NCBI GenBank assembly: GCA_944325585.1
Contig: CALVAS010000002.1
Span: forward strand, 1-61,552
Length of the DNA stretch: 61,552 nt
Direction of reading: 5' to 3'
From: Candidatus Gastranaerophilales bacterium
Lineage (GTDB): Bacteria > Cyanobacteriota > Vampirovibrionia > Gastranaerophilales > Gastranaerophilaceae
Shown here one piece after another: positions 1,775 through 35,399 of the stretch (positions within the stretch are counted from its first letter, which is position 1; every line of letters starts with the position of its first letter). A program made the translations under genes and the position numbers. The notes under the pieces are model-generated. The model searched no databases and was not told the origin of the DNA. It saw nothing but the letters and a program-made list of their open reading frames with translations.

Positions 1775-2560
1775 TTAATAAAGCGGATAATCTTTGTCAA
1801 TTTGCCAGCTGGCTTGCATTATAAGTGTTGAACAATGCGTGCCGTAAGTTTGACAATTTTGTATAAGCATTTCTTTTGTCTGGTTTTTGTAAGTCTCCGG
1901 ATGTTTTAATGCTGCGTTTTCCAAATCAATAACAAAGTAAAATACATCCTTGCCTAGCATATTGGGATTTTGATTGCCGTTAACGTCTATATACAGTCTC
2001 TGTTTTTTTGAAAATTTAGCAACGGGTGTACCATCTGTTGTATCCCAACTAAAGTAAATTAACAAAACAAATGTCCCATCAGGCATAAAAAATGATGTTC
2101 TTGTATTTTCATCGACTATTCCGGTGTCAAATGCGTTGCCATTCGGTTGCCTCCATGCTGTTGCCGTTTTATAGCCGCAATATGAACCCTGAGCGCAAAT
2201 TCTGGCCGTTTTAATGTAAGGTTTCCAATATGTTTCAAAATACTTTTTGGCTGTTTCTATGTTAATTTCTTCGCCGTCATTTACCCAGTCTACAGGTGAA
2301 CCGTTGTCATTTTGTGATGAAAGTAATGCTTGCGAAAAAACAGAATAAACTTTTTTAAGTTTGTTTACTGTCGTGACTTTTTGGTGCTTGGCAATTATGC
2401 CGGGTAATGTAAGAGCTGCAATTATTCCAATTATTCCTAATGTTATTAAAACTTCCGATAAGGTAAATGCATTTATAATTCCACTGAAATTCAGTATTTT
2501 AGGGTTATTTAAGCCCCCCCCGGGGCGCTGTAATCCTCTTGTAGTCAATATTTTAAGCAT
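1775..2560 (-). CDS. Prepilin-like protein with G8 tract in leader
   Basis: This 261-residue protein carries a type IV prepilin methylation motif, AFTLSEVLITLGIIGIIAAL, at residues 31-50. It has Phe at +1 and Glu at +5, with Ala rather than the usual Gly at -1, followed by a hydrophobic helix. The leader is 31 residues, far longer than the usual 5-10, and holds GGG encoded by eight G in a row next to four C (plus strand 2514-2525). There is no in-frame ATG between the G tract and the pilin motif, so the tract length sets expression. The start at 2560 has a strong AGGAGG; an upstream extension to 2620 is unlikely. The C-terminal half has paired cysteines and the motif YIDVNGNQNPNMLGKDVFYF. It is probably a pseudopilin or minor pilin assembled by a type IV pilus or secretion machine. 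It follows a 63-residue gene by 13 bp. Confidence 0.85.
   Translation of the reverse strand: MLKILTTRGLQRPGGGLNNPKILNFSGIINAFTLSEVLITLGIIGIIAALTLPGIIAKHQKVTTVNKLKKVYSVFSQALLSSQNDNGSPVDWVNDGEEINIETAKKYFETYWKPYIKTARICAQGSYCGYKTATAWRQPNGNAFDTGIVDENTRTSFFMPDGTFVLLIYFSWDTTDGTPVAKFSKKQRLYIDVNGNQNPNMLGKDVFYFVIDLENAALKHPETYKNQTKEMLIQNCQTYGTHCSTLIMQASWQIDKDYPLY
2514..2525 (-). repeat. Homopolymer tract C4G8 in prepilin leader
   Basis: On the minus strand CCCC is followed by eight G (plus strand CCCCCCCC at 2514-2521 then GGGG). It lies at codons 12-16 of the prepilin-like gene. Runs of this length are prone to slipped-strand mispairing, and a change of one base would stop translation before the pilin helix. 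As drawn the gene is in frame. Confidence 0.7.
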
Positions 2561-2573
2561 TTTGCCTCCTGAT

Positions 2574-2765
2574 TTATGATTTTTTAACGTCGTCTTTAAT
2601 GATAATAAGGTTATTTGCAATCTTCATTGCGCACGTCGGAAGCACAACATGATTAAGTCCGTCCGCAATGCTCAAAATGCTTCTGGCCTTAAGAGTAACG
2701 TCTTCTCCTTTGTATTGAAAAGTGTAATCCGTGTCTCTGTCTGAACGAATTGTAATTTTATCCAT
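2574..2765 (-). CDS. Small conserved-looking protein, unknown
   Basis: A 63-residue protein (MDKITIRSDRDTDYTF...) that I do not recognise. It has no membrane segment or cysteine pair. It looks like a small beta-rich domain, with alternating hydrophobic residues and an ILSIADG/IANNLIII core. The ATG at 2765 follows AAAAGGGGAAAAT, which is a plausible ribosome site; the longer frame from 2792 has no better one. It ends 13 bp before the prepilin-like gene on the same strand, and the pilin's AGGAGG lies in that gap, so the two are probably co-transcribed. A role in pilin regulation or assembly is only a guess from position. Confidence 0.6.
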   Translation of the reverse strand: MDKITIRSDRDTDYTFQYKGEDVTLKARSILSIADGLNHVVLPTCAMKIANNLIIIKDDVKKS

Positions 2766-34475: not shown

Positions 34476-34537
34476 AGTTGTATAAATTTAAAAACAGTGT
34501 TAAAATAGCAAAGAAGTAAAAATATAAAGGAGCTTAA

Positions 34538-34588
34538 ATGGTGAAAAAACAGACTATGATTGAATTTCAGGGGGGGGGGGGCAAGTAA
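34538..34588 (+). CDS. Short ORF ending at the G12 tract
   Basis: AAAGGAG then ATG at 34538 encodes MVKKQTMIEFQGGGGK and stops at TAA 34586, just after a run of twelve G. The ribosome site is the best one in this region. Removing one G (or adding two) would fuse this frame to the prepilin-like ORF, giving a 53-residue leader. As it stands it is a 16-codon upstream ORF. Confidence 0.55.
   Translation: MVKKQTMIEFQGGGGK
34570..34581 (+). repeat. G12 homopolymer tract
   Basis: Twelve consecutive G (34570-34581) between a well-placed start codon and the prepilin-like frame. In G12 the upstream frame is closed; G11 or G14 would join it. Such tracts are classic slippage sites. A homopolymer-length assembly error is the main alternative. 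Confidence 0.8.
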
Positions 34589-34682
34589 GAACAGCTCTCT
34601 CAACCGTCAAAAGTTAACATTCTTTTCTTTTGCCCTAAATAATGACATATTGTCTAATATATTAGGTATAAAAGAGGGCAGA

Positions 34683-35399
34683 ATGAAAGTTAAAGCATTT
34701 ACCATGGCGGAGGTTTTGATAACCCTCGGGATAATCGGCATTGTAGCGGCAATGACTATGCCGGTGCTAATCGGCAAATATCAAAAACATGTAACCGTAA
34801 CCCGTCTTCAAAAAGTTTATTCCGTATTGTCTCAGGCAATAAACTTTGCGATAAAAGATAACGAAGATATTCAATACTGGGATTTCGAACTTTCATCTCA
34901 GAAATTTATGGAACAATATATTGAACCGTATTTGCAAAATATCGCATCCGTTACTGAATATGATGATACCGACAGGTATTCAAAAATTTATGCGCTCACT
35001 GACGGAACTACATTTTACGGCTGGATGTATAAAAATCCAAGACCTGAAAACCATGACATCACAACATTTTACTCATTTTATGTGGATATAAACGGCGAGA
35101 CAAAGCCAAATCAGTTAGGTCGGGATAAGTTTATATATTATATTTTTCCTGCAAAATCAAGATTTTATAACGGCGGCAAGGGAAATCTTGCTCTAAATAT
35201 TCCGCGGGCAGGGCTTTATCCTGACGGGTACGGAATTGATCGTGAAACATTAAAAAATTATATTTGGCGCGGCTGTAATACAAGTCAAGATGCAGAACCG
35301 CCGGAAGGTTATGAAGGTCATTCACTTGCTGCCGGAGCTTATTGCACTGCTTTGATTATGGTTGACGGTTGGAAAATTTCAGACGATTACAATTGGTAA
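34683..35399 (+). CDS. Prepilin-like protein, possibly phase-variable
   Basis: A 238-residue protein from the ATG at 34683 (AGAGG five bases upstream), with the short classic leader MKVKA and then FTMAEVLITLGIIGIVAAM. Phe +1 and Glu +5 are present, with Ala at -1. The open frame continues upstream to 34560, through the G tract. The mature part has KxxVTVTRLQKVYSVLSQAI after the helix, the motif YVDINGETKPNQLGRDKF (about 145-162), late cysteines, and a C-terminus DGWKISDDYNW. It resembles the 1775-2560 protein throughout. It is likely a minor pilin or pseudopilin. Whether the 34538 or 34683 start is used depends on the G-tract length. Confidence 0.8.
   Translation: MKVKAFTMAEVLITLGIIGIVAAMTMPVLIGKYQKHVTVTRLQKVYSVLSQAINFAIKDNEDIQYWDFELSSQKFMEQYIEPYLQNIASVTEYDDTDRYSKIYALTDGTTFYGWMYKNPRPENHDITTFYSFYVDINGETKPNQLGRDKFIYYIFPAKSRFYNGGKGNLALNIPRAGLYPDGYGIDRETLKNYIWRGCNTSQDAEPPEGYEGHSLAAGAYCTALIMVDGWKISDDYNW

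Follow-up and report, generated by a model that had tools for sequence, protein, structure and literature searches.

Neisseria pilC, present as one or two genes encoding the pilus tip protein PilC, is switched by a poly-G tract. The locus described here resembles pilC in that a type IV pilus gene has a G tract close to its 5' end, and differs from it in that a large family of pilins, rather than one or two tip-protein genes, carries the tract. In Campylobacter jejuni, such tracts lie, as far as we know, in genes for varied surface structures, whereas here one gene family dominates and a leader cassette is common to its copies. The likeness to the C. jejuni phasome is in poly-G tracts switched by single-base slippage: PMC8224891 gives 12-29 genes with G7-G13 tracts, longer tracts leaning to deletion, and uses rates at G12 of 0.0001 for insertion and 0.003 for deletion.

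The opa genes of Neisseria, of which there are about 11 copies (PMC3745409), owe their switching to CTCTT repeats within the region coding for the leader peptide (PMC3960869). In both systems, a surface protein is encoded by numerous dispersed paralogs, each of which has a repeat of its own in a cleaved leader and a switch acting through the translational frame (PMC3960869). They differ in the repeat (pentamers vs single G), in the product (outer-membrane Opa proteins vs prepilins) and in copy number (about 11 vs dozens). Long leaders (19-248 amino acids), an anti-Shine-Dalgarno element and a different phylum set the present system apart. A switch inside a cleaved leader, which an initial annotation of this DNA had called unusual, thus has a precedent in opa, and by analogy the simplest account would be opa-like phase variation of a very large pilin family. 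A literature search for phase variation in Melainabacteria or Gastranaerophilales found none.

Anatomy of the window gene

Gastranaerophilales are uncultured gut bacteria of a cyanobacterial lineage. The window analyzed here is a stretch of 61,552 nucleotides from a Gastranaerophilales metagenome-assembled genome (MAG) of 1.76 Mb in 105 contigs, and the gene of interest lies on its forward strand. Direct reading places the Shine-Dalgarno sequence (SD) AAAGGAG, which is the same in cassette copies, at 34526..34532 (+), followed by the leader ATG and conserved leader codons (MVKKQTMIEFQ, 34538..34569, +; cassette profile of 127 loci) and by the G12 tract that would act as the switch (34570..34581, +). 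A TAA at 34586..34588 (+) closes the leader frame in the assembled state, and AGCTCTC at 34593..34599 (+) is a degenerate copy of an anti-Shine-Dalgarno element with the consensus AGCTCCT. The leader spacer (34582..34697, +) is open in the pilin frame from the tract on and leads into the mature prepilin-like protein (34698..35399, +), which begins FTMAEVLITLGIIG and comprises 233 amino acids. A tract of 11 or 14 G puts the leader ATG in frame with FTMAEVLITLGIIG at 34698, behind a leader of 53-54 codons, whereas with 10, 12 or 13 G the leader frame ends after 16-26 codons; as assembled, the gene is OFF, one G too long. An alternative internal ATG (34683..34697, +), five codons upstream of the mature start, would give the 5-residue leader MKVKA and has a weak, SD-like GAGGG upstream (GAGGGcagaATG). 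The initial annotation had placed AAAGGAG, ATG 34538, G12, the stop at 34586 and ATG 34683 exactly where we read them, and its statement that 11 or 14 G joins the leader to the prepilin frame is borne out by frame reading.

Three syntenic copies of the gene carry G12 (G000), G13 (G001) and G11 (G007), and all three have one G too many; the spacers of orthologs measure 116 vs 470 nt. A second prepilin gene of the window (1775..2620, -) is in the ON frame (MLKILTTRGLQRPGGGLNNPK...FTLSEVLITL), its leader containing a short G8 tract (2514-2521); it is possibly a locked-ON copy.

The product of the window gene contains the prepilin N-terminal motif, as TIGR02532 matched with 18.4 bits (cut-off 16.3). 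Pfam N_methyl scored just below its cut-off (19.4 vs 21.2) and DUF6613 matched at its cut-off. The pilins fit the prepilin signature (A or G, then F-x-x-x-E and a hydrophobic helix), and the residue preceding the F of the mature pilin was A or G in 127/127 loci. The AlphaFold2 model of the window pilin (pLDDT 83.6) has a helix at residues 3-55 followed by strands; a fold search of this pilin against the PDB returned no match at E <= 0.001. Furthermore, the genome encodes one match to a prepilin peptidase and four to T2SSE-type ATPases, all over cut-off. Regions matching the window pilin number 58 in the same genome and 10 to 102 in relatives of the genus.

Leader cassettes and tract lengths across genomes

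We observed 39 runs of eight or more G in the genome, 37 of which were of nine or more and only two of exactly eight. This scarcity of exact-8 runs is the opposite of random decay and most runs precede prepilins, which argues that the tracts are not there by chance. Prepilin genes carry about 30 of the 39 in their 5' leaders, in most cases within a shared cassette ordered as follows: SD AAGGAGCT, ATG AAA AAG CAG ACT ATG ATT GAA TTT CA, G10-14, CAACCCGCAATAAAGCTCCT, spacer and prepilin; in short, SD, MKKQTMIEF, G10-14 and CAACCCG..AGCTCCT. The single G12 of the initial annotation is one member of a genome-wide system of dozens of copies. A search of the GTDB r220 species genomes placed the leader pattern solely in MAGs of Gastranaerophilales or Melainabacteria and in one unnamed bin, and a search for the leader in viral contigs gave no match. 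A census across the order, with an open left end, showed the poly-G plus CAMCC cassette to be concentrated in the genus of the window.

A minority of long tracts have no adjacent prepilin (L059, L060 and L063 in G000; L154, L202 and L205 in G012; L171 and L180 in G002), and one poly-G prepilin copy of the window's genome (L360, G000 C8:25700-27700) adjoins the only MutS gene found there. In the same genome, 12/39 tracts are no more than 120 nt away from a contig end vs 0.6 expected (contigs C7, C17, C38, C43, C45, C59, C65, C68, C71, C73 and C89), as if leader repeats or variation in tract length had interrupted the assembly.

For the analysis of reading frames we used 148 prepilin-linked tracts, drawn from 14 genomes together with the genome-contig loci. 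Between tract and pilin, the pilin frame was open in 138/148 loci and the other two frames in 13 and 2; even spacers as long as about 700 nt, some with interspersed repeats, kept the pilin frame open. In two other genera, it was open in 28/28 loci vs 4 and 5 for the other frames. Predicted leaders ranged from 19 to 248 amino acids. The repeats in these spacers (e.g., CGGCTCGGAGGCCGGAATG and GTCATCCTGAGCCAAAGGCGAAGGATCC) leave the pilin frame open and accompany predicted leaders of up to about 250 residues; loci with such spacers include L072, L188, L195 and L217 in G012, L090 in G004 and L077 in G006. An SD-supported internal start was present in only 21/127 loci, and most OFF loci would thus lack a short-leader product. 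Swapping a long leader for a short one, as first proposed, is consequently possible for the window gene and a few paralogs and does not hold as a general rule.

G12 was the commonest length (87/148). Among the 127 loci with a clear start and an open leader, 23 were ON, 92 had one G too many and 12 were in the third frame. One G too many thus accounted for 92 of the 104 OFF loci, which is more uniform than free ON/OFF flipping predicts, and this bias is new. The modal length was 12, 13 or 11, set by the frame requirement of the locus, and loci differing in spacer phase likewise settle on one G too many. Length depended on the required frame (chi-square P about 2e-12, with related loci not independent), and ON loci were fewer than the 37.8 expected from within-genome shuffling (P = 0.00025). 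Substitutions at the tract edge account for part of the length difference among syntenic copies. In most of the 127 loci, a stop lies about 4-11 nt past the tract in the one-G-too-long state. The proposal that this state is favored since its stop precedes the anti-SD element fits the genus of the window (g1) and fails in G022, where the stop is often far. A pilin-frame start just before the tract in the same state was also rejected, as neither a consistent codon nor an SD was found.

Tract lengths thus vary between relatives, as the syntenic G12, G13 and G11 copies illustrate. Close gene pairs (80% identity or more) agreed in state in 15/28 cases vs 15.5 expected by chance, and simple inheritance of state from an ancestor is therefore not supported; gene conversion of leaders between paralogs could partly explain this loss of memory. 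A gene shared by G004 and G010, 99.8% identical over 900 nt, has G12 (ON) in one and G13 (OFF) in the other, with two further small indels beside the tract, so that a local sequencing error is possible there. Length variation and near-identical genes in different states support the initial claim that the tract is a reading-frame switch; state-changing differences between close relatives were seen between species and paralogs only. Some tracts are interrupted by A or T. Among those inspected, we saw one copy locked ON; several others, whose phase is OFF, go with damage elsewhere (mutated SD, broken leader or broken pilin), although some retain an intact pilin.

An anti-Shine-Dalgarno element and other genera

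GCTCC or CTCCT occurs 3' of the tract in 90/126 loci vs 3.6% expected; GCTCC itself lies at offsets 12-15. Its three phases relative to the pilin frame are about equally frequent (31/28/24), which argues that the element is conserved at the level of the nucleic acid and not of the protein. Pairing between the stretch 3' of the tract and its own SD was better than that with permuted SDs (0 of 10,000), and two flanking positions covary with the SD (P = 0.0002 and 0.005, values that relatedness may inflate). When copies were folded, four of them showed an SD-sequestering hairpin in the predicted centroid structure; the copy of the window gene, with its degenerate AGCTCTC, did not form this stem in its predicted fold. 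Pairing and covariation suggest that the element probably base-pairs with the SD and thereby lowers initiation. An anti-SD element placed after the tract and conserved regardless of frame is new.

G022 and G016, from other genera of the family, also have many poly-G tracts, again before prepilins and with quite different leaders. These separate poly-G leader cassettes in two other genera are new, and indicate that the switch design is wider than one cassette. One G too many again dominates (20/23 and 3/5, respectively), so the bias is not a by-product of a single leader sequence. The richest genome sampled is G022, whose 1.8 Mb contain 115 tracts of at least nine G; those sampled are mostly before pilins of the type FTMAEILLSLTIIGVVAAITL in open frames of about 320 residues.

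Probable phase variation and competing explanations

The arrangement has the form of translational phase variation: a repeat in the 5' coding region, of which one length modulo 3 gives the full protein. Judging from assemblies, we consider slipped-strand phase variation of a large pilin family to be the probable main function. Ribosomes would start at the SD and ATG 5' of the tract, and a single tract length modulo 3 would allow in-frame passage through the tract and the variable spacer into the prepilin. Prepilin peptidase would then cut after A or G, leaving no leader on the mature pilin. Gain or loss of G by slippage in living cells would toggle each gene, and with most copies OFF at any time, a population would sample combinations of dozens of pilins for pilus assembly. 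The excess of one G too many may reflect slippage biased to deletion, with copies accumulating next to an ON state that is costly, or leaky slippage in the one-G-too-long state itself.

The same bias fits programmed slippage. One G too many would then be the normal state, with RNA polymerase or ribosomes skipping one G at low frequency to yield a little pilin from unchanged DNA. The dominance of this state in three genera with different leaders (92/127, 20/23 and 3/5) speaks for such recoding, as does G022, where the stop of the dominant frame is often far (92-98 nt) and that of the other OFF frame near (7 nt), so that tight shut-off does not explain the bias. Frameshifting at a G run is known from the herpes virus thymidine kinase, where a run that has gained or lost one base can still give a little full-length product (PMC5009743), and a primary paper cited there names a net +1 shift in its title; that frameshift is a resistance mutation and not an evolved feature of a gene family. 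Against recoding, about 18% of copies are directly ON, close relatives change state freely, and interrupted one-G-too-long tracts tend to adjoin mutated SDs and broken leaders or pilins, with some pilins intact. Moreover, deletion-biased slippage, as described for long Campylobacter G tracts (PMC8224891), together with a cost of the ON state predicts the same bias. We therefore regard recoding as rather unlikely. A combined arrangement is similarly doubtful: one G too many would be a selected leaky default, the exact length full ON and the third frame dead, with DNA slippage, transcript or ribosome slippage and the SD/anti-SD hairpin jointly tuning dozens of pilins in a design that would recur in several genera with different leaders.

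The idea that MAG tract lengths are wrong and the genes simply in frame draws on the difficulty of sequencing long G runs and on the 12/39 tracts found no more than 120 nt from a contig end (0.6 expected). The leader, however, is repeated dozens of times, so that contig ends are expected there anyway, and the tracts recur across separately made assemblies. Furthermore, length tracks the required frame (P about 2e-12; shuffle P = 0.00025), which an assembler cannot know; the homopolymer error that the initial annotation named as a possible refutation is thus very improbable. It is equally hard to credit that the pilins arise from internal starts while the tract and leader form a separate element, e.g., a recombination or quadruplex site for antigenic variation. 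In the window gene and a few paralogs, an SD and ATG are indeed present 4-5 codons upstream of the mature pilin, and the ortholog spacers of 116 vs 470 nt point to recombination or insertion there. In contrast, such a start exists in only 21/127 loci, and the spacer is open in the pilin frame up to the tract; if it were not translated, this would be unnecessary.

The preponderance of one G too many poses a concrete puzzle, one that tells DNA-level switching apart from programmed slippage, and since existing metagenomes allow tract lengths to be read, switching is testable without culture. Under slipped-strand phase variation, a genome of 1.8-2.2 Mb with dozens of switchable pilin genes would hold one of the largest single-family phasomes known to us. 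Such a repertoire may serve antigen or adhesion variation or phage escape, and would offer these bacteria a clear route to host or phage evasion.
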